This document shows, piece after piece, positions 1,406-20,355 of a stretch of 64,000 nt of DNA. How positions within the stretch are numbered: the first letter of the stretch is position 1; every line of letters begins with the position of its first letter. The position numbers and the translations under genes are program-made. The stretch is from Halorubrum sp. JWXQ-INN 858. GTDB taxonomy: Archaea; Halobacteriota; Halobacteria; Halobacteriales; Haloferacaceae. The notes under the pieces are model-generated. The model did not search any database. It saw nothing but the letters and a program-made list of their open reading frames with translations, and was not told the origin of the DNA. The DNA lies in the NCBI RefSeq assembly GCF_009806985.1, contig NZ_WUAX01000006.1, positions 246,184 to 310,183 on the forward strand, written 5' to 3'.

Positions 1406-1414
1406 CTTTTTACC
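1406..1414 (+). promoter_or_regulatory. TATA box of maeB
   Basis: CTTTTTACC sits 23-31 bases before the ATG at 1437, consistent with a leaderless transcript of the malic enzyme gene. Confidence 0.65.
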
Positions 1415-1436
1415 CTCTTCGTGAAACGCGTAACAC

Positions 1437-3689
1437 ATGGGACTAGACGACGACGCGAGGGAGTATCACCGGCGGGACCCGCCGGGGAAGATCGAGATCT
1501 CGACGACGAAGCCGACGAACACGCAGCGTGACCTCTCGCTCGCCTACTCGCCGGGCGTCGCGGCCCCGTGTCTCGACATCGCCGAGGACCCGGAGGCGGC
1601 GTTCGAGTACACGGCGAAGGGGAACCTCGTCGCCGTCGTCTCGAACGGGTCGGCCGTGCTCGGGCTCGGCGACATCGGTGCGCAGGCGTCGAAACCCGTC
1701 ATGGAGGGGAAGGGCGTGCTGTTCAAGCGCTTCGCCGACATCGACGTGTTCGACATCGAGCTCGACATCGACGAGGTCGAGCCGTTCTGTACGGCCGTCT
1801 CCGCGATGGAGCCGACGTTCGGCGGGATCAACCTCGAGGACATCAAGGCCCCCGAGTGTTTCGAGATCGAGGAGCGCCTCCGCGAGGAGATGGACATCCC
1901 CGTCTTCCACGACGACCAGCACGGCACCGCGATCATCTCCGGTGCGGCGCTTCTCAACGCGGCCGACGTCGTCGACAAGGAGCTCGCCGACCTCGAGATC
2001 GTCTTCTCCGGCGCGGGCGCGTCGGCGCTCGCCAGCGCGCGGTTTTACGTCTCGCTCGGCGTGAAGCCCGAGAACATCACGATGTGTGACTCCTCGGGGA
2101 TCATCACGACCGCCCGCGCCGACGCGGGCGAGGTCAACGAGTACAAACGCGACTTCGCGCGCGACGTCGAGGGCGGCGACCTCGCGGACGCGATCGCTGG
2201 CGCGGACGTCTTCGTCGGCCTCTCGGTCGGCGGGATCGTCTCCCAGGAGATGGTCCGGTCGATGGCCGACGACCCGATCATCTTCGCGATGGCGAACCCG
2301 GACCCCGAGATCACCTACGAGGACGCCAAGTCCGCCCGCGACGACACCGTGATCATGGCGACGGGCCGCTCGGACTACCCGAACATGGTGAACAACGTGC
2401 TGGGCTTCCCGTTCCTCTTCCGGGGCGCGCTCGACGTGCGCGCGACCGAGATCAACGAGGAGATGAAGACCGCCGCCGCCGAGGCGCTCGCGGAACTCGC
2501 CCGCAAGGACGTCCCTGACGCGGTCGTGAAGGCGTACGGCGACGACCCGCTCCAGTTCGGCCCCGACTACGTGATCCCGAAGCCGCTCGACCCGCGCGTG
2601 CTGTTCGAGGTCGCCCCGAAGGTCGCCGAGGCCGCGATGGACTCCGGCTGTGCGCGGAGCGAGATCGACGCGGAACGGTACCGCGAGCGGCTCGAGGCCC
2701 GGCTCGGCAAGTCCCGCGAGATGATGCGCGTCGTGTTGAACAAGGCGAAAAGCGACCCGAAACGGATCGCGCTCGCGGAGGGGACCGACGAGAAGATGAT
2801 CCGCGCCGCCTACCAGATCGCCGAACAGGGGATCGCGGAGCCCGTCCTTCTCGGCGACGCGGAGTCCATCCGGGGGACCGCCCGCCGGCTCGGGCTCACG
2901 TTCGACCCCGAGATCGTCGACCCCGACGAGCGGGACGTCACCGCCTACGGCGATCAGCTCTACGACCTCCGCAAGCGGAAGGGCATCACCCGCCGGGAGG
3001 CCGGCGAGCTCGTCCAGCGTGACACGAACTACCTCGGGAGCGTGATGGTGAAAGCCGGCGACGCCGACGCGCTGTTGACCGGACTCACCCACCACTACCC
3101 GTCCGCGCTCCGGCCGCCGCTACAGGTGATCGGGTCGGCCGAGGACACCGACACGGTCGCCGGCGTCTACATGCTGACGTTCAAGAACCGGGTCGTCTTC
3201 TGTGCGGACACCACGGTCAATCAGGACCCGGATGCAGAAACCCTCGCGGAGATCACCCGCCACACCGCGGAGCTCGCGCGCCGGTTCAACGTCGAGCCGC
3301 GCGCCGCGATGCTGTCGTACTCGAACTTCGGCAGCGTCGACAACGCGGGGACGCGGCAGTCGCGCGACGCGGTGTCGCTGCTCCACGACGACCCGGCGGT
3401 CGACTTCCCGGTCGACGGCGAGATGCAGGCCGACACCGCGGTCGTCGAGGAGATCCTCACGGGGACCTACGACTTCTCCGACCTCGACGAGGCGGCGAAC
3501 GTCCTCGTCTTCCCGAACCTCGAGTCCGGCAACATCGGGTACAAGCTCCTCCAGCGGCTCGGCGGGGCCGAGGCCATCGGGCCGATGCTCGTCGGGATGG
3601 ACGAGCCCGTCCACGTCCTCCAGCGCGGCGACGAAGTGAAGGACATCGTCAACCTCGCGGGCGTCGCCGTCGTCGACGCACAGGAATAA
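1437..3689 (+). CDS. maeB: NADP-dependent malic enzyme with phosphotransacetylase-like C-terminal domain
   Basis: The 750-residue protein decarboxylates malate oxidatively to pyruvate, linking the citric acid cycle to pyruvate and supplying NADPH. Residues 1 to about 400 form the malic enzyme part, with FHDDQHGTAI near residue 157 (metal/substrate region) and a nucleotide-binding SGAGAS near residue 191. Residues from about 425 on match the phosphotransacetylase fold (KSDPKRIALAEGTDEKMIRA, later NFGSVDN), which in MaeB-type enzymes is regulatory and binds acetyl-CoA rather than acting as a transferase. The length fits the bacterial and archaeal MaeB class (about 750). Its own TATA box precedes it. 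It converges on the gene at 3742-4335. Identification is firm; cofactor preference is inferred from family. Confidence 0.95.
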   Translation: MGLDDDAREYHRRDPPGKIEISTTKPTNTQRDLSLAYSPGVAAPCLDIAEDPEAAFEYTAKGNLVAVVSNGSAVLGLGDIGAQASKPVMEGKGVLFKRFADIDVFDIELDIDEVEPFCTAVSAMEPTFGGINLEDIKAPECFEIEERLREEMDIPVFHDDQHGTAIISGAALLNAADVVDKELADLEIVFSGAGASALASARFYVSLGVKPENITMCDSSGIITTARADAGEVNEYKRDFARDVEGGDLADAIAGADVFVGLSVGGIVSQEMVRSMADDPIIFAMANPDPEITYEDAKSARDDTVIMATGRSDYPNMVNNVLGFPFLFRGALDVRATEINEEMKTAAAEALAELARKDVPDAVVKAYGDDPLQFGPDYVIPKPLDPRVLFEVAPKVAEAAMDSGCARSEIDAERYRERLEARLGKSREMMRVVLNKAKSDPKRIALAEGTDEKMIRAAYQIAEQGIAEPVLLGDAESIRGTARRLGLTFDPEIVDPDERDVTAYGDQLYDLRKRKGITRREAGELVQRDTNYLGSVMVKAGDADALLTGLTHHYPSALRPPLQVIGSAEDTDTVAGVYMLTFKNRVVFCADTTVNQDPDAETLAEITRHTAELARRFNVEPRAAMLSYSNFGSVDNAGTRQSRDAVSLLHDDPAVDFPVDGEMQADTAVVEEILTGTYDFSDLDEAANVLVFPNLESGNIGYKLLQRLGGAEAIGPMLVGMDEPVHVLQRGDEVKDIVNLAGVAVVDAQE

Positions 3690-4494: not shown

Positions 4495-4770
4495 TCAGGG
4501 GTGGAACTCGTCCTCGTACTCCTCCTCGTCGTCCCCCTCGTCGGGCGGCACGAGGTGGCCGGTAAGCAGGAAGCTCACGACGAACAGCACGATGAAGCCG
4601 ACCCCGACGGCGGCGGTCGTCCGGACGACGAACGGCCACTCCATCCAGAGGAAGTAGCGGTCCGCGATCATCATGGCGACGATCGCGACGACGATCGCCT
4701 TCTGCTCGTCGGTCGGGTTCGTCACAACCTGTTTGAGGTCGGCTTTGATCTCCGCGAGGAGTCCGGCCAT
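4495..4770 (-). CDS. Small two-helix membrane protein
   Basis: A 91-residue protein, MAGLLAEIKADLKQ at the N-terminus, with two hydrophobic segments (about residues 25-42 and 50-70) and a very acidic C-terminal tail (DEGDDEEEYEDE). The ATG at 4770 lies 2 bases beyond the stop codon of the aminotransferase gene, so the two are almost certainly translated from one mRNA. A longer reading frame runs back through the aminotransferase gene but has shadow-like composition and is not used here. Function unknown. Confidence 0.8.
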   Translation of the reverse strand: MAGLLAEIKADLKQVVTNPTDEQKAIVVAIVAMMIADRYFLWMEWPFVVRTTAAVGVGFIVLFVVSFLLTGHLVPPDEGDDEEEYEDEFHP

Positions 4771-4772
4771 GG

Positions 4773-5888
4773 TCAGCGTTCCTCCTCGTCGCGAATGACG
4801 CGGCGGACCCGCGCGAGCCCCTCCTCGAGCTCCGCCGTCGGGAGGCCGAACCCGATCCGGAACCGGCCGGGATAGCCGAACAACCCGCCCGGCGCGAGCA
4901 CGACGCTCGCCTCCTCGGCGACGGTTCGACAGAACGCCTCCGCGTCCGCGAAGCCGTCCGGCACCGTCACGAAGCCGTTGACGCCCACCGGCTCGTACCA
5001 GTCGAGCCCCATCCGGTCGATCCAGTCGACGACCAGCGTGCGGTGTTCGTGCGCGAGGTCGCGGTTCTCCTGGAGGATCCGCCGTTCGCGCCGCCCGAGC
5101 GCCTGCTTCGCGACGTGCTGATCGATCAGCCCCGGCGAGATGGTGGTGTAGTCCTTCCACTCCCAGGCGCGCTCGACGACGGGCTCGGGGCCGGCCAGCC
5201 AGCCGAACCGCAGCCCCGCGAGCCCGTACGCCTTGGTGAGACTCGTCGTCGAGATCCCGTGGCTCCCGAAGCTCGCGACCGGCGGCAGCGGGTCCTCAGC
5301 GAGCAGGCGGTACACCTCGTCACACAGCAGGTACGCGTCGTGCTCGACGGCGACGTCGTACACCGCGCGCATGACCGTCTCGTCGTGGTACCGGCCGGTC
5401 GGGTTGTTGGGGTTGTTGACGACGATGACGGCGGTGTCGTCGCGGACCGCCTCGGCGACCGCGTCCGGATCGAGCGTCCACGTGGGCTCCTCGAGCTCGA
5501 CGCGCGTCACCTCGCCGAACGCCGCCGGGACCGCGTGCAGGGCCTGATACGTCGGGGTGACGACGACGGCGTGCGAGCCGGAGCCGGTGGTGGACCCTTC
5601 GCCACCCGGTGCGGCGTCGCTCGCGAGCAGCGCGAGGAACGCGAGGAAGTTCGCCTCCTGTGTGCCACACGTGAACAGCACCTCGTCGGCGCTGCGTCCG
5701 TATCGCTCGCCGACGTCGGCCCGGAGCTTCGGGTCGCCGTTCGTCGGGATGACGTAACCGAGCGCCCCCGGGTCGAGGTCGAACCGGTCGGCCTCGAGCG
5801 ACCGGATCCCGCTTTCGGCCAGCATGACGTCGGCCTCGTGTTCGTACTCCGCGAACCAGCGTTCGAGGCCGAACGGCTCGATGTGCAT
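4773..5888 (-). CDS. PLP-dependent aminotransferase, class I/II
   Basis: A 371-residue fold-type I aminotransferase. The PLP lysine lies in STTSLTKAYGLAGLRFGWLA (near residue 220), the Asn-rich active-site motif is VNNPNNPTGRYHDE (near 158), and an arginine in the C-terminal PGRFRIGFG would hold the substrate carboxylate. It transfers an amino group between an amino acid and a 2-oxo acid; the amino acid is not predictable, though the compact form resembles the aspartate/alanine or capreomycidine-synthase-like branch. It is the first gene of a two-gene unit with the small membrane protein at 4495-4770. A TATA-like ATCTAACC lies about 27 bases upstream of the ATG at 5888. Confidence 0.9.
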   Translation of the reverse strand: MHIEPFGLERWFAEYEHEADVMLAESGIRSLEADRFDLDPGALGYVIPTNGDPKLRADVGERYGRSADEVLFTCGTQEANFLAFLALLASDAAPGGEGSTTGSGSHAVVVTPTYQALHAVPAAFGEVTRVELEEPTWTLDPDAVAEAVRDDTAVIVVNNPNNPTGRYHDETVMRAVYDVAVEHDAYLLCDEVYRLLAEDPLPPVASFGSHGISTTSLTKAYGLAGLRFGWLAGPEPVVERAWEWKDYTTISPGLIDQHVAKQALGRRERRILQENRDLAHEHRTLVVDWIDRMGLDWYEPVGVNGFVTVPDGFADAEAFCRTVAEEASVVLAPGGLFGYPGRFRIGFGLPTAELEEGLARVRRVIRDEEER

Positions 5889-5990
5889 ACCGAACGTCCG
5901 GGTGGCGACAGGTTAGATGCTACGGTCCCGCTCGAAGCGTCGGTCGCCGATCGACGGTCGACCGTCGTCCCGAGCCCGGCCGAACGAGGA

Positions 5991-6494
5991 CTACTGGAGC
6001 CCTTCGAACTCCGCCGCAGACACGAGCGCCGCGACGTCGTCGAGCTCGAGCGTTTCGAGCACCGCGGCCGCGTCGCCGTCGACCAACAGCGCCCCCGCCT
6101 GGACGCTGCTGTCCGCCACGGCGAGCCCGTCGATGTCCACCACGTGCTCCTCGACGGCGGCGGTCGCGCCCTCCAACGCCTCGAGCTGGGCCTCCTGGAA
6201 CTCGGCCTGCGCCTCCTCCTGATCGATCTCCTCGTCCTGCAGCCGCTCCTGGATGTCGGCCTCCCGTTCCGCCATCCGATCGTCGATGTCGACCGCGACC
6301 GTGGCGGCGGCCTCGCCGCTCGGGGTCGTCCCGCTCGTGTCATCGTCGCCCTCCCCGTCACCGGAGGCGGGGGCGTCCTCCCCGCCGTCGGTAGGCGCGT
6401 CCTCGTCCCCATCGAGCGCGCTACAGCCGGCGAGCGAGAGGGCGGTGCCGGTCGCTGCGACCTCCAGTACGCGTCGTCGCGGTGTCTCGACCAT
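5991..6494 (-). CDS. Secreted lipoprotein, acidic, unknown function
   Basis: A 167-residue protein with a Tat-like opening (PRRRVLEVAATG) and lipobox LAGC at residues 21-24, so it should be exported folded and anchored by a lipid. It continues with an Asp/Gly/Ser-rich linker (residues about 25-60), a Glu/Gln-rich helix likely to be coiled (70-110), and an Ala/Asp-rich end. The ATG at 6494 was chosen because it places the signal sequence at the very N-terminus; a longer frame upstream is arginine-rich and not convincing. It neighbours the aminotransferase gene on the same strand, 102 bases away. Confidence 0.8.
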   Translation of the reverse strand: MVETPRRRVLEVAATGTALSLAGCSALDGDEDAPTDGGEDAPASGDGEGDDDTSGTTPSGEAAATVAVDIDDRMAEREADIQERLQDEEIDQEEAQAEFQEAQLEALEGATAAVEEHVVDIDGLAVADSSVQAGALLVDGDAAAVLETLELDDVAALVSAAEFEGLQ

Positions 6495-6993
6495 ACCTGG
6501 GCTTCGAGCGCGGAGACAAGGGCCTTGTGTTGTTTCCCACGCGCCCGGAGCCGGGCGCTCGGACTCTCGGACTCCCGGGATCCCGCGGGATCCGCCTCTC
6601 TGTGTCCCGTCGGTCCGATCCTCCGAACCCCGTCGGTCCGTCCCCTCGTATCCCGTCGACACCGACTCGTTCACGATCGTGTCCTCCCGACGATCGAGCG
6701 GCTCACGAAGGACGGCCCGAACAGGAGACGTTACCGGGGGAAGCGGGACGCCGTCCGGTCGACGCCTCGGCGGGACCACTCACGAGACGCGATCACGACC
6801 GGCGTGGGCTATCATTACAACTATCATACCAATTCACTCGGATCACCACTTTTCGGAGCGAACGGATCCGTTCTCGTCGGCCGTGAAAAGTCGTATAGAA
6901 CCATTACCGGCTCGTTCGAAAATCGGTTACGAGAATGAAAAACGCGTGATAAGTTTCCCAGGGGTTAAGTAACCGTTCGTCGAGGCTCACCTA
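6495..6993. other. Gene-free stretch between divergent genes
   Basis: About 500 bases between the lipoprotein gene (minus) and the receiver-PAS gene (plus). Reading frames here have shadow-like, Arg/Ser/Pro-rich products. The right third is notably AT-rich and includes TTAAGTAACC around 6964-6973, which is 27 bases before the ATG at 6994 and is the likely promoter. Nothing else recognised. Confidence 0.6.
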
Positions 6994-8139
6994 ATGGTAC
7001 CTGGAATCGCCGTCCTCCATGTGGACGATGAGCCGGATTTCAGCGATCTGGTGGAGATCTACTTGGAGCGAGAGTGCGACGAGATCGAAGTCACGGCCGA
7101 GTCCGACAGCACGGCGGTCCTCGATCTGCTGGAGACACACGAGTTCGACTGTATCGTCTCCGACTTCGACATGCCGTCGCTGAACGGTGTCGAGCTTTTG
7201 AAACGACTCCGAGAGGAGGGACACACGCTCCCGTTTATCCTCTACACCGGGAAGGGCTCCGAAGAAGTGGCGAGCGAAGCGATCTCCGCCGGCGTCGATG
7301 ACTACCTCCAGAAGCGGACGAATACGGAGCAGTACACGCTGCTCACCGCTCGCATCCGAAACCTCGTCTCGAAACACCGCGCGGAGACGGAGGTCGAACG
7401 TATGCGACGCTACTACGAGAAGGTCCTCCAACGCTCTTCGGACTACGTCATGATCCTCGACCGGGACGCGAACCTCGAGTACATCTCGCCGGCGGTCAAG
7501 CGTGTGATCGGATACACCGCCTCGGAGATCACACGCCGGGACGTGTTCGACTTCGCCGTCGATGCGGACCGAACGCGTGCTCGGGAGTTCTTTCAGAGAG
7601 TCGTCGCTCGGTCGGGTGAGGAACTCACGACGCGGCTCCGCGTACATCACGCGGACGGCTCCTCACGGTGGATCGAGTTGCGAGCACGCGACCTCACGAC
7701 GGACCCGATCATACGAGGCGTTATCGTCAACGCGCGGGACGTCACGGAGAGCGTGGAAGACCTGCAGTGTAACGAATCGATCATCGAAAACCTCCCCGGA
7801 TACGTCTACCGCCATCACGACGAGGAGGGCTGGCCACTGGAGTTCGTCAGGGGCAGCGCCGAACGGGTTACCGGCTACACCACCGAGGAACTCGAGAACG
7901 AAGTCGTGGACGCGGAGGACATCATCTATCCGGACGACAGGGACCTCGTCCGCGAGATAATCGTCGACTGCATACGGTCAAACGAGCGATTCGACGAGAC
8001 GTACCGCATCATCACGAAGCGCGGTGACGTCGAGTGGATCCGGGACCAAGGCCACGTGATCGACGACCCGCTGACCGGGGAGCAGTACCTCGACGGCTTC
8101 ATTAATACGTGTGAAAAGCCCAGGCCACAGCCGCCGTAG
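6994..8139 (+). CDS. Receiver-PAS-PAS signalling protein without kinase domain
   Basis: A 381-residue protein. Residues 1-120 are a response-regulator receiver with acidic pair DDEPDF, phospho-acceptor Asp in CIVSDFDMPSLNG, and the haloarchaeal TGKGSEEVASEAISAGVDDY segment. Two PAS domains follow (about 140-255 and 262-372). It stops at IDGFIN-like sequence just where a histidine kinase domain usually begins (ends CEKPRPQPP), so it either acts through partner kinases or lost a C-terminus. The stop lies only 129 bases before the left junction of the putative island. TATA box 27 bases upstream supports the start. Two relatives lie at 37392 and 45212. Confidence 0.9.
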   Translation: MVPGIAVLHVDDEPDFSDLVEIYLERECDEIEVTAESDSTAVLDLLETHEFDCIVSDFDMPSLNGVELLKRLREEGHTLPFILYTGKGSEEVASEAISAGVDDYLQKRTNTEQYTLLTARIRNLVSKHRAETEVERMRRYYEKVLQRSSDYVMILDRDANLEYISPAVKRVIGYTASEITRRDVFDFAVDADRTRAREFFQRVVARSGEELTTRLRVHHADGSSRWIELRARDLTTDPIIRGVIVNARDVTESVEDLQCNESIIENLPGYVYRHHDEEGWPLEFVRGSAERVTGYTTEELENEVVDAEDIIYPDDRDLVREIIVDCIRSNERFDETYRIITKRGDVEWIRDQGHVIDDPLTGEQYLDGFINTCEKPRPQPP

Positions 8140-8953
8140 GGGGTAACAGGGAGTGCTGTATCGACCGGTTTGCGAGTGAGTCGCCGGTCCGTACTGTGAA
8201 CCGACACGGGGTCATACTTCGAGACTCTCGCTTTCGTTGTGACTGGGAACGTGAATAATGTCGTGAGTGGCCGGGGTGGGCTCCACACATGGTGTTTACA
8301 TGCGCAGTAATATACTCTCCATGAATGACCGATCAGCCGGGGAACGCGATCGATCGCAACGTCGAGATCGAAGGAGGATTTCGTTGACGCCAAGATCATA
8401 GATATCATCGTCGTCCCGGGTTGTCGTGTCGTGTGCGGACATCGGACTTCGACGTGTACTTCGAAACCATAGAAATAGGACGTCGAACTTTCGGAGATGA
8501 CTTCGCGAGTCCGGACGTAATTAATTTAAAAATAAAGTCATATCTACTCATATACATTTGATAAGAACCGTAGATGGTATTTTCAAGGATATAGAATGGG
8601 TAAGGCCACCGAATACGGGCCATAATTCCTTCGCATGGGCGTAAATAAGACGGCGATATTTTCTGTTTCAGGCGAGGTCTGATGCGTTTTCACTCATTAG
8701 GAATGCATTATTGGCAGACATGTTTATGAGGTATGGTGTTTTTACTGCCTTTGTCTCATCTCGAATGGGAAGCACATATATCCGACATCGATCCCGGTCG
8801 TATCGCCTCTCACACACTCTGCGTTCGACGATGCAGGCCAGCAGTGTGGGTGTGCAGTGTACTTTGAACCGATCTTCCTTCGCGAGCGCGCACAAGCGCA
8901 CTACGCATGGTGACGACGGATCGGTTGAGCACAGCGTGGAGTAACACGATAGC
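8140..8953. other. AT-rich gene-free stretch carrying the left island junction
   Basis: About 814 bases with no convincing gene. It contains the 17-bp tRNA-Met copy (8268-8284) and then becomes markedly AT-rich (8500-8800). CATATATCC at 8775-8783 is the best promoter candidate for the large surface-protein gene at 8954, which would give a leader of roughly 150 bases; GGAG at 8938-8941 could assist ribosome binding. Short minus-strand frames such as 8405-8623 have no recognisable product. No integrase remnant seen. Confidence 0.55.
8268..8284. repeat. Left att-like repeat (copy of tRNA-Met 3' end)
   Basis: TGGCCGGGGTGGGCTCC, identical to 15864-15880 and in the same orientation. It corresponds to the discriminator base, the acceptor 3' strand, the 3' T-stem strand and four T-loop bases of the tRNA on the minus strand. 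The match ends one base either side. Confidence 0.7.
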
Positions 8954-11900
8954 ATGACGGACACACGCATACGAGTGCAGGCAGTACTGTTCGCCGTGAT
9001 CATGGTCGTTTCCATGGTCGCGGTTGGAGCTGGCGGCATCGCCGCCGAGGAGACGTCGTCGAATGGAGTCATTGAGGTTGAGACGGCAGATGAACTTCGA
9101 GATGCCGCAGCGGGTGAAGAGGTAGACGGCCAAACAGCAAGTTCCGAGACTCCTATCGAGATCGTCGGTGACATCACGCTCACCCAAGATGACATCTCCG
9201 TTGAGGCTGCGGACGTGACGATCACGAGCGATGATACCGATCGGACGGTCAAGTACCAGCCCAATAGCGAATCCTCGGACAAGGTCTTCCGAGTCAACGC
9301 GGACAACGTGGAGATTCAGGACATCGAAGTGAAGCGAATCGCCGCAGACGATCGCGGCGAAGATGCCACGTCATTCGCACACGGGATCGTTATTCGAGAC
9401 AGAGCCGGTGATGAAATCTCCGGTGTTTCCATCGAGAACGTCGACGTCGTCGGTGAAGGTTTCGACGATCAGAACAATCGGGGTGTACAGGTTCTCGACG
9501 GCACGGACAATGAGGCCGCTGATGCGTCCGATATCAGCGTCACGGATTCAACTGTCGAGGGCTTTGACGGTGGCTTTTCTGCCGGAGCAGCCTACGGAGG
9601 AACGATCACCGATGTTTCCATTACAGATAACGACCTGATAGATGGAAATTCGGTCGGTGTGGACGTCTCTACTGCCGCACTTGATGGTAGTAGCGGCGGT
9701 TTCTTCGGCGATGCAGGGATCACGGTCATCAACAACGAGTTTGGTGATTTCGATGGTGAAGACCAGGCACCTATGGTCGAGATCGCGCCTGAGGATGAAG
9801 ATCCAAGCGTCCTCAATTTCCGTGAGACGTTCGAAGGGAATGACTTCGAAGGCGCAGCTGTCGCGTTTGAGTTTGATAGCGATATCGGCGCACAGTCGTA
9901 TACTGCTGAAAAACTCCCGGACGTTGATGCGACCTTCGCCAGCATCACCTCCGACATTCAGTCCTCCGTCGACATTGCGGAAGGCGGAAACACTGTCGAA
10001 GTTGCTCCTGGAACCTACGACGAGGATATGTTGGTTGTCGGTGACGAAAAGGAGGGGCTTCTGATCAGCTCTCAGGCAAGGCCTGAGGAGACACTCATCG
10101 ACACTGAAGCCGGTGTCGACCTTAGAGCCGAAGATGCGAGGATCGAAGGCTTTGAGATCGATACTGAAGACGCAGAGTTCACCGTGTTCGCTGATGCACC
10201 TGGTGTTGAAATCGTAGACAACGTCATCAACTCCGGCACTGGCCAAGATGCGAACGGCGTTCTGGTAAACGTCGATGACGTCGTCATCGAAGACAACGAA
10301 ATTACTGGTGCTGAGGCCGGTGATCGCGGTGGCGATATTAACATCGAAACAGAGACCCCGGATATTGTAGACTACCCGATCACGGTTAATGGCGAGGAGT
10401 TTGCTGACGGCGAAACAGCCGAAGCCAGTCAGAAGCTCTTCGACGACAACACCGAGATAGGCGTGGTACAGATCGGTGACGAAGAGTTCCTTGAGTCTGG
10501 CGAGGTCGACGGTGCGCCTGTCGTAAACGTCAATCAAAAAGAAGGATTTGACACCATCCAAGCTGCAGTCGACGCAGCCAGCGACGGCGACACGATCGAA
10601 CTCGCTGCTGGAGAAACCTTCGAGGACGACGATATCCGTCTGAACACGGATGAGATCACGCTCACGTCCACTGACACAGAAGACGTAGCAGAGATTCAGA
10701 GTGACACAGCTGAGGGCGACATCCTGAAAGTCGAGAATGATGGAATTACCGTCGAGAACGTCGATATCACCGTGACCGAAGATGGTCAGGGTGCGATTGA
10801 CGACAGCGGCGGTGCCGACTTCACGCTTGAGGAGAGCACGGTTGCATACGATGCTGATCCGGAAGAGAGGCCCACCTCAACCGTGAACTTCGCCCAGAAT
10901 GGTGCGACAGTCGTCGGCTCCGAAGTGGAGGGTCAGATCCGCGTGAACGCTGATGCGGACTTCACTGCGATAGATAACGAACTCGACCAGATCAACCACA
11001 ACGCTGACAACTCAGAGATTCGTGATAACGAGTTCAACCCCGAAGGGACGAACTCCGGAATTACCCACAATGCCGATCACGTCGAGATTGTAAACAACGC
11101 CTTTAGCGGCGAGCAAGTGGGTGTGTTCCTCCGCGGTGACGGTAACGAGGTTCGTGACAACACCTTCGAGGACATGTCCGGTGAAGTGGTAGCCGGTGGT
11201 GAACAGCAGACAGTCCAAGGCGTGACCGTCCTCGCCGGGACGAACAACGACATCGAAGACAACGAGTTCGATAACGTTGCACGCGGACTCGTGGTCTTCA
11301 GCCCCGAAACCGAGACTGGGGACATCGAAAATAACGATTTCCTTGGTGGTGACAATACCGAAACGTACGTTGAAGATCCAGACGAGAACCTCAACCTCGA
11401 TGACGTGGTAGATAACAACGAGTTTGACCCGGGTGCGGTAGTTGAGGAGAACCAGGTCGTTGTCGGAGGACCGGCCGAGCCCGAGCTGAGCAACCTCAAC
11501 ATCGCTGGCGACGGTGACGACGCGACGATCACGGAGGGTGACGACGAGTCCATTGAGGTCGACGTCGAGAACGTCGGTGACGAAGCGGATCGGTTCTACC
11601 TCACGCTCGAGATCGGGGATGAGGTGGAATCTGAGGAAGGTATCGATGTAGATGCTGGTGACACGGAAACGCTCACTTTCGATGGCGTGACTGACGGCCT
11701 TGGCGCACAAGATGAGGCTTACACAGTCAGCGTACAAGACAGCGATGAGGTAGGTAGCGAGCTCACTGGTGAGCTGACCGTTGAAGAGGCGCCTGAGCCG
11801 GCTGAGCCCGCACTGAGCAACCTCGATATCGCCGGCGACGGTGACGACGCGACGATCACGGAGGGCGACGACGAGCCCATCACGGTCGACGTCGAGAACG

Positions 11901-14900
11901 TCGGTGACGAAGAAGGAACGTTCGTCATCGAGCTCGAGATCGGTGGAGAAGTCACTGAGAGTGAAAACACCGGAACGCTCGAGGGTGGCGAAACCGAGAC
12001 AGTCACGTTCGAGGATGTCACTGGCGACCTCGACGCAGATGAGTACAGCGTCACTGTCACTGCTGATGACGATCCCACGGAACTCACCGGCGACCTGACT
12101 GTCGAAGAGGCAGACGAGGTGCCCGAGGTCGGCATCAAGCACGCAGAAACCTCTGCCGGGTCGACTGGCACTACGGATGGCGATGATCTCGTCATCAGCG
12201 AGGTTCTGAGCGCTGCGCCCGACGGACAGGATACGATCGAGTTCGGTAGCGACGCCGACCGCACGATCGAAATCCGCAACACGGAGACCGATATGAGTGT
12301 CGAGATCATCCCTGAAGCGGACGAAGGGACCTACGACGTTGATCGCATCCGGCTTGACGTCTACGACGGCACTGGAGAGCTTACTCCTGAAGATGCCGAC
12401 CCGGACGTCAGCCTTACGATTCCTGAAGAGGAAGATGATGGAACAATCAACCGGACAAACGAGCGCCTGAACGTCACGCTGGAGGGTGATGACGACGTCT
12501 TCACCTCCAGTGATGGGACCTTCACTGAGTTCGAGCTCGAGCTCGTCGATGACGGTACCGTCGTCGATACGAGCGACGAGCGATTCATCGGGGTCGGCTA
12601 CGTCGGCGGGATCGAGCAGGATAGCACCGAAGACGAAGTCACGGTGACGATCCCGCGCGATGACGAAGTCGATGAGGACTGGTTCGTTCAGTTCGGTATT
12701 GCTGATCTCGACTTCGAGACTGAAGTCGAGCACAGCGACGATGATGACGTCTTCGAGTTCACGATCGACGTCTCCGATATCGAAGACGGTGAGTACACCC
12801 CGCGACTGGAGATGTACGAGACTGAAGATGCGCCACTCGGTGAACGCATCATCAACGTCTTCGACGTGGATGGCTTCCAGGTTGGTGAAGACGAAGATGT
12901 CGTCGACGTCGACATCGACCTCGACGTACAACCCGACCTGGTGAGCACGCAGACGCCGCTCGAAGTCACCACCGAGATCTCCGAGGGCGACGTTGAGTCC
13001 GCACAGGTCTCGATCGTCGACGCTGACGGCGACGTCGTCGCCAGCGCCGATGCGAGCGGTGCCATCAACGAGGAGATCGAACTGTTCTGGGCCGCCACCG
13101 ACGGTGAAAACGACCCAGTCGCGGACGGTGAGTACTCCGTCGAAGTGACGGCAACGACTGACGACGGCGACGAGGTCACGGCCGAGTCCGACCCGTTCGA
13201 GGTCGACAACTCCCCACCGGAGGTCGATGACATCGAGCTTGACACGGACCTGACGAACGATGAGGTCACGGTCAGTGCGGACGTCTCGGGCGTCAACAGC
13301 GACGTTACGGACGTCCAACTCGGCCTGAGCGCAACGTTCGCCGCCTTCACCGTCACCGAGCCCGCAGCGGGCGGCGAGACTGAAGGCGAGGTCGAAGCGA
13401 CGATCGATGCGGATGACGTCGTCGCTGACGGCGACTACTCCGCAATCGTCGTTGCGACTGACGCCGCCGGCAACGAACAGGAAGTCGGGGACGGCCTCGT
13501 GACGATCGACACGTCCGCACCCGAGATCCAGCCGCGCGTGACGGACCTCGGTGAGGACGATGCGACGCTGGAGATCGAGGCTGACGAGGACGTCACGATC
13601 GAGGAGCTCGACATTGAAGCAGCTGCTGGCGAGGATACGGAGGACCGCTTCACCGAGGACCCGCCGAGCGAACTCACTGACGAGTTCGAGATCGAGTTCG
13701 ACGGAGCGACCGTCAATGAGGAAGACACCACGTTCACGATCGACGTGGTTGCAGAGGATGAAGCAGGCAACGAGGACACCTACCAGCTGACATCGTCGAT
13801 CACCGGCTACGAACTCGAGGACGGTGAGGCGACGGTCGAGCCGGAGTCGACTGACGGGGTGTTCGACCTGAGCGCCGACGACGACGCCGACGGTGAACGC
13901 AGCGCGGCCGTCGGCCAGACGTCCAGCGCGCCCGCTGGAACGTCCGTGGATGCCGACCAGATCGCGGAGGAGTTCATCGACGTCGCTGACATCGGTCTTG
14001 AGGAAGAAGAGCTCGAGGACGCGACGGTTCGCGTCCCGCTCGAGGACATCGACATTGAGGCCCTCGACGATGATGAGGACTTCGACGAGGAGGACCTCGT
14101 CTTCTTCTACTCACCCGAGGGTGAGGAGGACTACGAGGTGCTCGAACCGGAGATCGTCGATGACGAGCTCGTCGTCGACGTCGATGGCTTCAGCCAGCTC
14201 GCACCCGGTGGCGTGGACGACCAGCCACCGTCGCTCGGCGAAACGACCATCGACCCCGGCACCGAGCTCGAGGTTGATGACGGAGCCGTGACGCTCACGT
14301 TCGAGTACTCGCCCGTCATCTCCGACATCGACGTGTCGGCGACGACCGTCGATGCCGACGTGGATAACGCGCGAACGGACGTGCAGATCACGAGCGAGGG
14401 TACCGAGGTTACCGTTAGTGACCTCCAGCCCGACGAGACGTTCGACGTCGAGCTGACGGTCGTCGACGAGGCAGGCAACGAGGTCACGACGACAGAGACG
14501 TTGTCGGTTGCTGACATCGAAGAGGAAGAAGAAGAAGAGGAGACGACCGCTCGTAGTGGTGGTGGCGGTGGTGGTGGTGCAGCCAGCCTCACCGCACCTG
14601 ACGGCACGTCCGTCGCTGATAGCATGCGACAGACGGTGTCTGACTTCAACCAGAACATCGATGGCACGACCGTCGTGCTCCCGCAGACTGCGCTCGACTC
14701 GATCGCGTTCGCAGAGGGTGGCCTCAGCGGCGACGTCGATGTGTTCGAGCTTGACGCGCTACCGGAGTACGCACCCGGACTCGATGACGGCCAGCCGTTC
14801 GTGTCTGGCTTCGTCATCGAGCTGGACGACGAACTGACCGAGGAGTCGGCCACGCTAACGGCGACTATCCCGGCCGAGCAGGTCGAGGATGCTGGCGCTG

Positions 14901-15250
14901 ATGCGGATGACCTGGTCATCCTGCGCGTTGCTGGTGACGACTACGAGCAACTCGAGACGACCGTTGAGTCGAACGGGGAGCTCACTGTCTCCGCAGAGAC
15001 GCCTGGCTTCTCAACGTTCATCGTGACGACCGGCGAGTCAGCTGAAGAGGTCGAAGAGACGCCGGAGGACACGCCGGAGGATACACCTGAAGAGACGCCG
15101 GAGGATACACCTGAGGAGATGCCCGAAGACACGCCAGAAGACGTTGACGAGCCCACGGATGACGACACGCCCGGCTTCGGTGCTGTCGCTGCACTCGTCG
15201 CACTGCTGGCTGCAGCACTCCTCGCAACCCGACGGCGAACGCAACTCTGA
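8954..15250 (+). CDS. Giant cell-surface protein: beta-helix, CARDB and Ig-like repeats, PGF-CTERM anchor
   Basis: A 2098-residue exported protein. Residues 1-32 form a signal peptide like those of haloarchaeal S-layer glycoproteins. About 35-835 read as right-handed parallel beta-helix, with repeated VxIxDNxI turns and an AVDAASDGDTIEL motif near 545. About 838-1050 are two CARDB-like modules with nearly repeated SNL(N/D)IAGDGDDATITEG sequence. About 1055-1310 resemble an S-layer/DUF segment and 1315-1640 hold Ig-like repeats. About 1870-2020, after an eight-Gly run, is a PGF-pre-PGF domain. A PE(D/E)TPE linker leads to the PGF-CTERM tail (TPGFGAVAALVALL, then TRRR), the signal for archaeosortase processing and lipid anchoring. 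It probably acts in adhesion, surface structure or carbohydrate binding. Codon use is less GC-rich than neighbours, and it fills the putative island. Confidence 0.9.
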   Translation: MTDTRIRVQAVLFAVIMVVSMVAVGAGGIAAEETSSNGVIEVETADELRDAAAGEEVDGQTASSETPIEIVGDITLTQDDISVEAADVTITSDDTDRTVKYQPNSESSDKVFRVNADNVEIQDIEVKRIAADDRGEDATSFAHGIVIRDRAGDEISGVSIENVDVVGEGFDDQNNRGVQVLDGTDNEAADASDISVTDSTVEGFDGGFSAGAAYGGTITDVSITDNDLIDGNSVGVDVSTAALDGSSGGFFGDAGITVINNEFGDFDGEDQAPMVEIAPEDEDPSVLNFRETFEGNDFEGAAVAFEFDSDIGAQSYTAEKLPDVDATFASITSDIQSSVDIAEGGNTVEVAPGTYDEDMLVVGDEKEGLLISSQARPEETLIDTEAGVDLRAEDARIEGFEIDTEDAEFTVFADAPGVEIVDNVINSGTGQDANGVLVNVDDVVIEDNEITGAEAGDRGGDINIETETPDIVDYPITVNGEEFADGETAEASQKLFDDNTEIGVVQIGDEEFLESGEVDGAPVVNVNQKEGFDTIQAAVDAASDGDTIELAAGETFEDDDIRLNTDEITLTSTDTEDVAEIQSDTAEGDILKVENDGITVENVDITVTEDGQGAIDDSGGADFTLEESTVAYDADPEERPTSTVNFAQNGATVVGSEVEGQIRVNADADFTAIDNELDQINHNADNSEIRDNEFNPEGTNSGITHNADHVEIVNNAFSGEQVGVFLRGDGNEVRDNTFEDMSGEVVAGGEQQTVQGVTVLAGTNNDIEDNEFDNVARGLVVFSPETETGDIENNDFLGGDNTETYVEDPDENLNLDDVVDNNEFDPGAVVEENQVVVGGPAEPELSNLNIAGDGDDATITEGDDESIEVDVENVGDEADRFYLTLEIGDEVESEEGIDVDAGDTETLTFDGVTDGLGAQDEAYTVSVQDSDEVGSELTGELTVEEAPEPAEPALSNLDIAGDGDDATITEGDDEPITVDVENVGDEEGTFVIELEIGGEVTESENTGTLEGGETETVTFEDVTGDLDADEYSVTVTADDDPTELTGDLTVEEADEVPEVGIKHAETSAGSTGTTDGDDLVISEVLSAAPDGQDTIEFGSDADRTIEIRNTETDMSVEIIPEADEGTYDVDRIRLDVYDGTGELTPEDADPDVSLTIPEEEDDGTINRTNERLNVTLEGDDDVFTSSDGTFTEFELELVDDGTVVDTSDERFIGVGYVGGIEQDSTEDEVTVTIPRDDEVDEDWFVQFGIADLDFETEVEHSDDDDVFEFTIDVSDIEDGEYTPRLEMYETEDAPLGERIINVFDVDGFQVGEDEDVVDVDIDLDVQPDLVSTQTPLEVTTEISEGDVESAQVSIVDADGDVVASADASGAINEEIELFWAATDGENDPVADGEYSVEVTATTDDGDEVTAESDPFEVDNSPPEVDDIELDTDLTNDEVTVSADVSGVNSDVTDVQLGLSATFAAFTVTEPAAGGETEGEVEATIDADDVVADGDYSAIVVATDAAGNEQEVGDGLVTIDTSAPEIQPRVTDLGEDDATLEIEADEDVTIEELDIEAAAGEDTEDRFTEDPPSELTDEFEIEFDGATVNEEDTTFTIDVVAEDEAGNEDTYQLTSSITGYELEDGEATVEPESTDGVFDLSADDDADGERSAAVGQTSSAPAGTSVDADQIAEEFIDVADIGLEEEELEDATVRVPLEDIDIEALDDDEDFDEEDLVFFYSPEGEEDYEVLEPEIVDDELVVDVDGFSQLAPGGVDDQPPSLGETTIDPGTELEVDDGAVTLTFEYSPVISDIDVSATTVDADVDNARTDVQITSEGTEVTVSDLQPDETFDVELTVVDEAGNEVTTTETLSVADIEEEEEEEETTARSGGGGGGGAASLTAPDGTSVADSMRQTVSDFNQNIDGTTVVLPQTALDSIAFAEGGLSGDVDVFELDALPEYAPGLDDGQPFVSGFVIELDDELTEESATLTATIPAEQVEDAGADADDLVILRVAGDDYEQLETTVESNGELTVSAETPGFSTFIVTTGESAEEVEETPEDTPEDTPEETPEDTPEEMPEDTPEDVDEPTDDDTPGFGAVAALVALLAAALLATRRRTQL

Positions 15251-15863
15251 CACGAGCGCCCGCACGCGCGTGCCGTGACGCACGCACCGGTCGCGGTAAC
15301 CGGTGACATCATTTCGGTTGCGGCTTTTTTATGGACGATCGCTAACTCTACGAATTCTCTGTGGCCGCCGTTCTGAGATGCTGTGGAGTCGAACCGACGA
15401 GTGCGAGGCAAAACGTCCACCTGCGTCGTGAAAATATACTTTGATAAGCAAGCAGACAACACTCTCCACGAAATGCAGGCGGTTATGACTATCACCGACA
15501 TGACTGACTAGATCAAGACTGCGGCACCACACGATCATACCTCAAAATATCCCGTTTGGTCTCGGAACCGGCGTCAAACGGTGAGTACAACCACCGGCGA
15601 CCGGGACGCTATCGCTCGAGCAGATCGTATTCTCGGACCTTCGCAGGTTGTTCTGTCGACTGTGCCGACTGATGGGCTCTGTGTTGTCCGATCATCAGTG
15701 TAGACGAGGTCGGTGACGCACTCCTATCGCTGGTGTAACCGCGTGAGTCGCTCAGTGTTCGGCGTGTTGTGCGCGGCATCGCCTCCGCTGGTACTTTGCA
15801 GAAACAAGGCTGTCGAACCCTACGATTCGATAGCGAACACACTCTATCTCGAAATCTGAAGTA
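15251..15863. other. Gene-free stretch downstream of the surface-protein gene
   Basis: About 610 bases of lower GC at the right side of the putative island. It includes a likely terminator at 15325-15330. Minus-strand frames around 15609-15899 could be decayed coding sequence, but no family is recognisable. Confidence 0.5.
15319..15331 (+). terminator. T-tract terminator after the surface-protein gene
   Basis: A run of six T after a GC-rich stretch (TTGCGGCTTTTTTATGG) about 75 bases past the stop codon. Oligo-T tracts terminate archaeal RNA polymerase; no strong hairpin is required. Confidence 0.5.
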
Positions 15864-15880
15864 TGGCCGGGGTGGGCTCC
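15864..15880. repeat. Right att-like repeat (3' end of tRNA-Met)
   Basis: The 17-bp partner of 8268-8284. It overlaps the tRNA-Met gene and includes one flanking base, the complement of the discriminator A. Confidence 0.7.
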
Positions 15881-16019
15881 GAACCCACGATCTCCGCATG
15901 TCCCAGGTCCGAGGCTCGGCGGAGCCACGGGAAGGACGCGGACGCTTCCAAGGCAGCGTACCGCACCGAATCTCTGAACCCTATGAGTGCGGCGCTATGT
16001 CCAGCTAAGCCACCCGGCC
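15865..16019 (-). tRNA. Elongator tRNA-Met (CAU) with an 82-nt intron
   Basis: On the minus strand the gene reads GGCCGGG, then a D-arm with GCTTAGCTGGACATAGC, anticodon stem CCGCA and loop CTCATA up to base 37 (15982). The second exon starts with A38 at 15899, then TGCGG, the variable region, the T-arm (GTGGG TTCGGAG CCCAC) and CCCGGCC. The acceptor stem pairs perfectly. The intron (15900-15981) lies at the canonical 37/38 position, is typical of haloarchaeal elongator tRNA-Met, and would be removed by the bulge-helix-bulge endonuclease. CCA is not encoded. A TATA-like GGTTAAA lies about 30 bases upstream (16048-16054). Confidence 0.93.
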
Positions 16020-16123
16020 TCACCGTTACGTACCGCGATGACACTCTTTAACCTTCTCATCCGCCGCACCATTGCTACCCGATACCACGTTCGACGTCAT
16101 CGCTCGTGAGAACCGGACCCCGC

Positions 16124-16132
16124 GGATTTATG
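16124..16132 (+). promoter_or_regulatory. TATA box deciding the start at 16157
   Basis: GGATTTATG centred 27-28 bases upstream of the ATG at 16157. It excludes the earlier in-frame ATGs at 16106 and 16130, which would lie at or before the promoter. Confidence 0.7.
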
Positions 16133-16156
16133 CCGGACGGGGCGAATCCACGGGCA

Positions 16157-17359
16157 ATGAGCCTTCCCGAACGACTCGCGGGGGCGGTCGACGACGAGGA
16201 CGTCGTCGCCCGGGTCCCGCTCGGCGGCGACGACGTGCTCGTCGTCACGCCGACCCGAACGCTCGTCTATCGGGCCGAGGGGCTGCTCTCGGACGAGACG
16301 GTCGAGGAGTACGGTCACGACGCCGAACGGATCGACGTCTCGAAGGGTCGCCGCAAGTCGAAGCTCACCCTGAGCTACGGTCTCGACGGCGACGAGACGG
16401 TCACGATCCCCACCAAGCGACTGGACGACGCCCTCCATCCCGTGCTCGCCGGGGTCCTCTCGGGCGTCGGGGTCACGGAGCCCGGCGAGTCGGTCGTGCG
16501 GACGTTCCGGTTCTCCGAGCTCACCCTCGTCGTCACCAGCCATCGGCTGGTCAAACACATCGGGTCGGCCGTGTGGGACGGCGACTTCGAGGAGTTCCCG
16601 TACGCGGACCTCACCGGGCTCGACTTCGAGGAGGGGACCGTCGCGACGTCCGTCGTCCTCACCCACGACGGGCGCTCCGAGCGGTTCAAGGCCCCCAACG
16701 AGTCGGCCCGCGCGGTTCGGGAGACGCTTACCGACGCGGTCTGTGAGTTCCACGGGGTCGACAGCGTCGAGGAGTTCCGGATCGTCGCCGCGGAGGCCGC
16801 TGAGGCGGCCGGAGCCGACGCGTCGGGCGGCGGATCGGGCGGGACGACGGACTTCGGCGACGGACCGGACCCGCTGTCGGCGTCCCCGGTCTCCGACGCC
16901 GAGGCCGAGGCGGGGGCCGACGCGGGACCCGGCCCCGCGGAAGCGTCCGGAGCCGACCCTCTCGCCGGGAGCGGCCGATCGGCCGCGGCCGGATCGAACG
17001 AGGGGATGAGCGTCGCGGACGCCGCGACCGGATCGGTCGAGCCGGACGACCCGCTCGCGGGCGATCCCGGGGGCGACCCGATGCCGTCGCCGACGGGGTC
17101 CGCCGAGTCCGCCGGATCGGGGGCCGCAAGCGGGTCCGAGCCCGCCGGTTCGGGCGCGGCCGGCGTGGATGGTGCGGCCGGCGGCGACGCGGGCGACGCG
17201 TTCGAGGGGTCGGCGTTCGAGAGCGCCGGAGTCGAGGACGAGGACCTCACGGCCGAGGTGGCCGCGCTCCGCGAGACCGTCGAGCAGCAGTCCGAGCGGC
17301 TCGACCGGCAGGCGGAGCTCATCGAGCAGCTCATCGCCGAACTCCGTCAGGGGCGGTAG
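16157..17359 (+). CDS. Conserved haloarchaeal protein (DUF7115-like) with coiled-coil end
   Basis: A 400-residue soluble protein of unknown function. Residues 1 to about 210 form a compact domain with repeated short beta-strands (VLVVTPTRTLVYRAEG, then LVVTSHRLVKHIG), reminiscent of pleckstrin-like or bacterial PH folds. About 215-360 is a low-complexity Gly/Ala/Ser/Asp linker. The end (about 362-400, AALRETVEQQSERLDRQAEL) is a heptad coiled coil ending in a basic GR. DUF7115 is a recollection, not a search result. Start chosen by the TATA box. It converges with the gene at 17422. Confidence 0.8.
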   Translation: MSLPERLAGAVDDEDVVARVPLGGDDVLVVTPTRTLVYRAEGLLSDETVEEYGHDAERIDVSKGRRKSKLTLSYGLDGDETVTIPTKRLDDALHPVLAGVLSGVGVTEPGESVVRTFRFSELTLVVTSHRLVKHIGSAVWDGDFEEFPYADLTGLDFEEGTVATSVVLTHDGRSERFKAPNESARAVRETLTDAVCEFHGVDSVEEFRIVAAEAAEAAGADASGGGSGGTTDFGDGPDPLSASPVSDAEAEAGADAGPGPAEASGADPLAGSGRSAAAGSNEGMSVADAATGSVEPDDPLAGDPGGDPMPSPTGSAESAGSGAASGSEPAGSGAAGVDGAAGGDAGDAFEGSAFESAGVEDEDLTAEVAALRETVEQQSERLDRQAELIEQLIAELRQGR

Positions 17360-18771: not shown

Positions 18772-20355
18772 ATGGTCGAGGCTCCAGCAACCGAGGAGGG
18801 TTGGTTCGCGCTCCACGACTTCCGGTCGATCGACTGGGACGCGTGGCGTGAGGCCCCCGAACACGAGCGGGACCGGGCGATCGAGGAGGGGGAGTCGTTC
18901 CTCCGACACCGCGAGCTGCTCGCGGACGCCGACGCCGGCGACTCGGCGGTGTTCTCCGTGCTCGGGCACAAGGCGGACCTCCTCATGGTCCACTTCCGCC
19001 CGACCCTCGACGACCTCTCGTCGATCGAGCGCCGCTTCGAGGACACCGCGCTCGGCGCGTTCACCGAGCGGGAGACCTCGTACGTCTCGGTCACCGAGGT
19101 GTCGGGGTACGTCTCGGACGACTACTTCACGGGCGACGAGGACGACGTCGACGAGGGGCTCCGCCGCTACATCGAGGGGAAGATGAAACCGGAGATCCCC
19201 GACGACGAGTACGTCTCCTTTTACCCGATGAGCAAGCGCCGCGGCGAGGAGTACAACTGGTACGACCTCTCCTTCGAGGACCGCGCCGACCTGATGGCGG
19301 GCCACGGCGAGGTCGGCCGGGAGTACGCCGGCCGGATCAAACAGGTGATCGCCTCCTCCGTCGGCTTCGACGACCACGAGTGGGGCGTCACGCTCTTTGC
19401 GGCCGACCCCACCGACATCAAGGACATCGTCTACGAGATGCGCTTCGACGAGGCGTCCTCGCGATACGGCGAGTTCGGCGACTTCTACGTCGGCCGCCGG
19501 TTCCCGCCGGCCGACCTCGGGGCGTACCTCGCCGGTGCGAAGGTTCCCGCGAGCGCCCACCCGGACGACGAGGGGAGCCACTCCCACGACGAAGGGGGCC
19601 ACGGTGGGTCCGCACACGGCCACGGTGGGTCCGCACACGGCGACCACCCGCACGGCGAAGGCGGTCACGGCGGCTCCGGCGACCACCCGCACGGCGAGGA
19701 CGGCCACGGCGAGTCCGGCGACGACCACCACGGCGACTCCGGCGACGCCGACGGAGAGGCCGAAGACGGCGACGCGGGGATCCGCGGGGAGCTCGCGGAC
19801 CTCGACATCTACGCCGGCAAGCCCCACGGCGAGGACGTGTACGCGACGGTCCTCTACAGCGAGGCCGACGTCGACGCGCTGTTCGACGAGGTCGAGGGGC
19901 TCCGCGGCAACTTCGACCACTACGGCTCGCACGTGAAGACGGCCGTCTACGAGGGGCGCGCGACGGACCGGGCGGCGGTCGTCTCGATCTGGGAGACCGC
20001 CTCTGCGGCCGAGACCGCGGGAGGCTTCCTCTCGGAGCTGCCGGGCGTCGTCGCCCGCGCCGGCGAGGAGTCCGGCTTCGGGACGATGGGGATGTTCTAC
20101 ACGACGAAGTCGGAACACCGCGAGGACTTCGTCGAGACGTTCGACGACGTGGGCGAGCTGCTCGGCGAGATGGAGGGCCACTTCGAGACCGATCTCATGG
20201 TGAACGTCGAGAACGACGACGACATGTTCATCGCGAGCCAGTGGCGCTCGAAGGAGGACGCGATGGCGTTCTTCCGCTCCGACGAGTTCGGCGAGACGGT
20301 GCGGTTCGGCCGCGAGGTGCTCGCGGACCGGCCGCGACACGTCTTCCTCGCGTAG
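18772..20355 (+). CDS. pitA: PitA: heme-binding chlorite-dismutase-like domain joined to a monooxygenase-like domain
   Basis: A 527-residue fusion found in haloarchaea. Residues 1 to about 250 form a chlorite-dismutase/HemQ-type domain: DLMAGHGEVGREYAGRIKQV near 180 carries the likely heme-ligand His and the HGxxGR pattern. A His/Gly/Asp-rich linker (about 263-335, repeating GGSAHGH and GDHPHGE) follows. About 340-527 is a ferredoxin-like antibiotic-biosynthesis-monooxygenase (ABM) domain, seen as FGTMGMFYTTKSEHREDFVE and FIASQWRSKEDAMAFF. The family is thought to act in heme metabolism, possibly as a coproheme decarboxylase. A TATA-like element at about 18742 supports the ATG at 18772 over the upstream frame. 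The His-rich linker may bind metal. Confidence 0.92.
   Translation: MVEAPATEEGWFALHDFRSIDWDAWREAPEHERDRAIEEGESFLRHRELLADADAGDSAVFSVLGHKADLLMVHFRPTLDDLSSIERRFEDTALGAFTERETSYVSVTEVSGYVSDDYFTGDEDDVDEGLRRYIEGKMKPEIPDDEYVSFYPMSKRRGEEYNWYDLSFEDRADLMAGHGEVGREYAGRIKQVIASSVGFDDHEWGVTLFAADPTDIKDIVYEMRFDEASSRYGEFGDFYVGRRFPPADLGAYLAGAKVPASAHPDDEGSHSHDEGGHGGSAHGHGGSAHGDHPHGEGGHGGSGDHPHGEDGHGESGDDHHGDSGDADGEAEDGDAGIRGELADLDIYAGKPHGEDVYATVLYSEADVDALFDEVEGLRGNFDHYGSHVKTAVYEGRATDRAAVVSIWETASAAETAGGFLSELPGVVARAGEESGFGTMGMFYTTKSEHREDFVETFDDVGELLGEMEGHFETDLMVNVENDDDMFIASQWRSKEDAMAFFRSDEFGETVRFGREVLADRPRHVFLA

Follow-up and report, generated by a model that had tools for sequence, protein, structure and literature searches.

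An attachment-site repeat at a Halorubrum tRNA-Met gene as a probable relic of a BJ1/Humcor1-like halovirus

We analyzed a 64,000-nucleotide stretch of the genome of Halorubrum sp. JWXQ-INN 858 (hereafter the window), in which a direct repeat of the 3' end of a tRNA-Met gene lies 7.6 kb away from that gene. We favour, with moderate confidence, the explanation that the left copy of the repeat is a relic, consisting of an attachment (att) site and the start of an integrase gene, of a tailed halovirus of the BJ1/Humcor1 type (Graaviviridae) which used the tRNA-Met 3' end as attB. The body of the virus would have been lost, and the giant surface-protein gene enclosed by the repeats is probably not viral cargo. 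Comparison of sequences identifies the type of virus, the core, both viral arms, the integrase stump and the use of tRNA-Met as attB by the relative Humcor1. The locus is thus a decayed provirus attachment site at a tRNA gene, of a known kind, in an unusual and instructive arrangement. The features are listed in Table 1.

Table 1. Features of the window around the tRNA-Met gene (positions counted from the first nucleotide of the window).
Feature	Coordinates	Strand	Basis or remark
Species-specific low-GC stretch (58% GC)	6530..15863	.	holds the response-regulator gene, the att relic and the giant gene; no counterpart in G061/G066
Response regulator/PAS gene	6994..8139	+	within the low-GC stretch, left of the repeat
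Viral P arm (left arm of attP), 31 nt	8237..8267	+	23/31 identical to BJ1, ungapped, anchored at the core
17-bp attachment core	8268..8284	+	identical to the tRNA-Met 3' end; the same core is present in BJ1 and in Humcor1, where the attP is annotated
Viral P' arm and integrase leader	8285..8324	+	36/40 nt identical to BJ1
Viral integrase stump, first 14 codons (MTDQPGNAIDRNVE)	8325..8366	+	homology then ends abruptly
Low-GC (about 41-52%) non-coding stretch	8367..8953	.	GC profile
Giant surface protein P0001, 2098 aa	8954..15250	+	signal peptide, beta-helix/NosD region, Ig/CARDB-like units, PGF-CTERM anchor
Non-coding stretch before tRNA-Met	15251..15863	.	without viral P arm (9/31)
attB core	15864-15880		3' end of tRNA-Met
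tRNA-Met(CAU), elongator-type	15864-16019	-	74 nt plus 82-nt intron; ARAGORN with introns allowed
DUF7115 gene, conserved right neighbour of tRNA-Met	16106..17359	+	cluster c0 in 44/44 loci clustered (window included); Pfam

The 17-bp repeat, TGGCCGGGGTGGGCTCC, was found exactly at both core positions of the window, in both cases on the + strand. The tRNA-Met gene was missed by the default tRNA scan because of its intron. A first reading of the DNA from its letters (the sequence-only reading) had taken the repeat to be the 3' terminus of tRNA-Met beginning at the discriminator base; the repeat does start there, and the ARAGORN gene model agrees. The segment thus has a second copy of the tRNA 3' end, in direct orientation, at its distal border, which is one of the signs of a tRNA-associated genomic island. 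The left repeat is not one of many scattered copies, as the exact 17-bp word occurs only twice in the whole 3.1-Mb genome. We compared the locus with 44 congener tRNA-Met loci, for which left flanks of up to 14 kb were taken (less where contigs end). No exact match of at least 12 bp to the tRNA-Met 3' end was detected in these flanks, and the window alone has one. The reading of the repeat as a chance similarity, one among many tRNA-like words, has only the short length of the repeat in its favour, and we assign it a vanishingly small probability. It is already refuted by the two exact copies in 3.1 Mb, the lack of a copy in the flanks of the 44 congener loci and a 130-bp match to halovirus BJ1 (E 6e-45). 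In one congener genome (G057, L160, C16:186149-186186) the tRNA-Met query was matched over just 38 nt near its 5' end, and no tRNA was predicted there. This genome is 82% complete, and its tRNA-Met may be missing, diverged or intronless.

The match to BJ1 covers both sides of the left core: window positions 8237-8366 align with BJ1 14575-14446 at 90% identity. As a control, the P-arm score was computed at 20,000 positions drawn at random from the window. Apart from a single value of 23, which we take to be the P-arm site itself, no score exceeded 17/31. On the right, the BJ1 match ends at 8366, the P' profile match ends at position 82 of about 180, and tblastn of the Humcor1 integrase matched residues 1-14 only, at the stump. 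No full-length gene for a tyrosine integrase is present next to the att site. The earlier statement that no integrase lies inside the segment is accordingly correct for an intact gene, but it overlooked the 14-codon start of one. The element is decayed, which was one of the options named earlier. No match to BJ1 or Humcor1 open reading frames was detected in 8400-15860, and head-tail genes (terminase, portal, capsid, tape measure) are absent between the att sites. The left copy is an attP-like P-core-P' site with viral sequence on both sides. It is not a host/virus attL, because a true attL has host sequence on its left, as in Humcor1.

Humcor1 is reported as an induced provirus related to BJ1 (PMC7911831). 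In the genome of its host, Halorubrum coriense DSM 10284 (G044), an additional, incomplete copy of the tRNA-Met end is found at a distance of 46.5 kb from the gene, and Humcor1 (46,474 bp) sits exactly between C26:170618 and tRNA-Met at C26:217092. The distance between the two cores equals the length of the Humcor1 record, 46,474 bp. The record (MW344765) marks an attP matching the tRNA-Met 3' end; the integrase gene lies directly inside attL and is followed by terminase, portal and tape-measure genes. The left att site of this host aligns with window positions 8268-8366 at 78% identity over 101 bp. The homology to the BJ1 attP-integrase region, together with the presence of Humcor1 in exactly the same site in Hrr. 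coriense, supports, as the sequence-only reading had suggested, that an integrase produced the 17-bp repeat by integration at the 3' end of tRNA-Met.

The copy at the tRNA gene looks different. Its match to the viral P arm is at background, and the last bases before tRNA-Met (ctgaagta) are similar to the host sequence at this place in several species, the two nearest among them. We therefore conclude from these alignments that, as it stands, it is not an attR of the BJ1/Humcor1 type. A provirus of this type has the layout host-core-P' at attL and P-core-tRNA at attR, while the window has P-core-P' on the left and 9/31 at the tRNA side. This bears directly on the earlier proposal of a simple island, in which a single integrated element, with attL and attR as its ends, makes up the 7.6-kb segment, the surface protein being its cargo and its integrase having been lost. 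Such an element would account for the direct repeats with correct tRNA geometry, for the low GC and for the position of the integrase start, which follows the left repeat closely as it does at Humcor1 attL. We nevertheless consider it unlikely, since the left copy is preceded by a viral P arm where host sequence should stand, the tRNA copy lacks the P arm that an attR would have, the surface protein is without viral or phage homologue and the low-GC stretch runs past the left repeat.

The composition was examined further. GC was 57.6% in 8285-15863 in comparison with 69.7% for the rest, so the enclosed DNA is indeed low in GC, as had been noted; the left edge of the low-GC stretch is not at 8268 but at about 6.6-6.7 kb, the drop itself starting at about 6.7 kb. 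Homology to the two nearest species (G061 and G066) ends at about 6506-6529. In these two, another block adjoins tRNA-Met on the left, the counterpart of which lies on contig C8 of the genome studied here (G000), and the block left of the variable stretch of the window is on another contig in these species. We also observed a local rearrangement, in that window blocks -1209..-27, 1408-3685 and 4495-6529 are reordered in G061 (L169). The 44 congener tRNA-Met loci lack the segment, although their left flanks differ; the comparison did not reveal a clean empty site, since these loci include no strain of the same species and the left flank is rearranged in the nearest relatives. We were not able to trace a donor for the non-coding parts. 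A search of 170 family genomes with the integrase-side intergenic stretch returned, besides itself, one marginal 40-bp match, and at the top of the list of a wide search with the tRNA-side stretch there were only generic surface-protein C-termini.

The segment bounded by the repeats does contain one long gene only, P0001, as had been described. The protein also has a Thr/Pro/Glu-rich stalk, and an Ig/CARDB-like unit of about 109 aa is duplicated in it. At the DNA level we observed a 155-nt duplication inside the giant gene (11471-11625 and 11798-11952, 83% identical), which represents a recent doubling of an Ig/CARDB-like unit. By its domains P0001 is predicted to be an accessory PGF-CTERM cell-surface protein, presumably anchored via archaeosortase. 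We rejected it as the main S-layer protein; the canonical S-layer glycoprotein gene is on contig C6. The best homologue is in G066, with 63% identity over about 820 aa; G042 and G057 have weaker ones, and no tRNA was found in the regions concerned. No homologue was detected in phage records or in viral contigs, the search of plasmids gave nothing useful and there was no match among PDB sequences. The proposal that the surface protein was the cargo of the element is not borne out by these searches: homologues are lacking on the viral side, and homologues in a congener lie away from any tRNA found. Nothing in the data ties P0001 to the virus, and such a link has no positive support.

We noticed separately that in four congeners (G002, G004, G053 and G058; L086, L097, L142 and L158) the space between tRNA-Met and the CBS-domain gene, directly downstream of the tRNA (to its left, about -4000 to -400), is taken up by a canonical S-layer glycoprotein gene (900-1004 aa, PGF-CTERM). 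Most other congeners do not have an S-layer gene at tRNA-Met. These genes were considered as P0001 homologues, but this was rejected because the alignment is confined to about 85-130 aa in the Ig-like part.

How could a P-core-P' site come to lie 7.6 kb from its attB? Sequential or tandem integration, followed by decay and replacement, fits the arrangement better than a simple attL-attR island. A virus may have integrated at tRNA-Met either beside a P-arm scar of earlier date or as the tandem partner of another copy, and P-core-P' would result. Tandem integration of archaeal elements at a single locus has been described (PMC8371274). Almost the whole provirus would then have disappeared, with it the P arm at the tRNA and the integrase gene from codon 15 onwards. 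The giant surface-protein gene would probably have arrived, or stayed, by ordinary recombination in the variable region, and would not have been carried by the virus. The P arm differs at 8/31 positions between the window and BJ1 and at 5/31 between the viruses (26/31 identical). Since the former divergence is not clearly above the latter, sequential and tandem integration are not separable by it, and two separate integrations are not proved. The tRNA copy without a P arm counts against the explanation that we favour, because it calls for one more event, a loss or a replacement.

The P and P' arms might also both come from one unrecombined attP, without action of an integrase. Viral or plasmid DNA with P-core-P' would then have entered by homologous or illegitimate recombination, and its nearness to attB would reflect a recombination-prone region. 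Both copies do look unrecombined, with P-core-P' on the left and a non-viral flank at the tRNA, and congeners show rearrangements to the left of tRNA-Met. We regard this origin as possible but rather improbable, as it needs the coincidence that a 130-bp viral fragment with just attP landed in direct orientation to its own attB and 7.6 kb away from it, and as recurrent P-arm scars at tRNA-Met show integrase action there.

These scars were observed across the genus. The left side of tRNA-Met is highly variable among congeners. In many of them the usual left neighbour is the CBS-domain gene, which in Hrr. coriense adjoins the left att site of Humcor1; congeners with that neighbour therefore represent empty sites for Humcor1. 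A P arm also flanks tRNA-Met in the Humcor1 host. In about five other congeners we found viral P arms at tRNA-Met without a detectable provirus in the flanks taken (27/31 in G067, L155; 23/31 in G051 and G013, L139 and L093, with only about 3 kb of left flank existing in G013; 21/31 in G003, L094; 19/31 in G011, L089), and a weaker one in G064 (L145, 18/31). These arms are candidate scars of lost BJ1-like proviruses. An intact P' arm with integrase was found within the family only in Hrr. coriense and in G354, which belongs to another genus. The latter locus (L205, C36:73552-73653) has a BJ1-type core with one base different, a P' arm and a full integrase, and is probably a further tRNA-Met provirus. 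The exact P'-arm pattern, searched over genome contigs, was found in Hrr. coriense only. Among viral contigs a shorter pattern matched BJ1 and one further contig, and a long pattern, which was too strict, matched none. Judged by these alignments, insertion and decay at tRNA-Met recur, and the gene is a recurrent provirus hotspot in Halorubrum-type genomes, leaving recognisable P-arm scars.

The attP relic and attB lie in direct orientation, and because the two cores are direct repeats, excision in trans is possible in principle. If the relic were still functional, a BJ1-like virus, infecting or resident, might supply integrase in trans and excise the giant surface-protein gene as a circle, so that some cells of an infected population could cease to make a host surface protein. 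Excision would restore an intact tRNA-Met with a P-arm flank, the configuration of the scars in several congeners. We consider this reading very improbable; were the relic active, a virus integrase would be linked to the loss of a surface-protein gene. Apart from this, the analysis identifies the virus group behind the repeat as BJ1/Humcor1-like. It also indicates that a direct repeat of a tRNA end does not by itself delimit an island, and that the arms must be read.

In summary, the locus resembles three known systems in part. BJ1 (Beejeyvirus, Graaviviridae; NC_008695) has the identical 17-bp core, and the likeness runs over P arm, core, P' arm and integrase start; in contrast to the virus, the window keeps just 14 integrase codons and no other recognisable viral gene. 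Humcor1 has the same attB and the same type of integrase at the attL end. It is complete, however, with host sequence left of attL and a viral P arm at the tRNA, whereas in the window the P arm stands on the left and is missing at the tRNA. The integrase-bearing genomic islands described close to tRNAs of Halorubrum ezzemoulense (PMC11078007) differ in that they were defined by comparison of strains and kept their integrases, while the window has a stump only. Like the window, they are low in GC and variable, and many of them were read as remnants of integrated elements.
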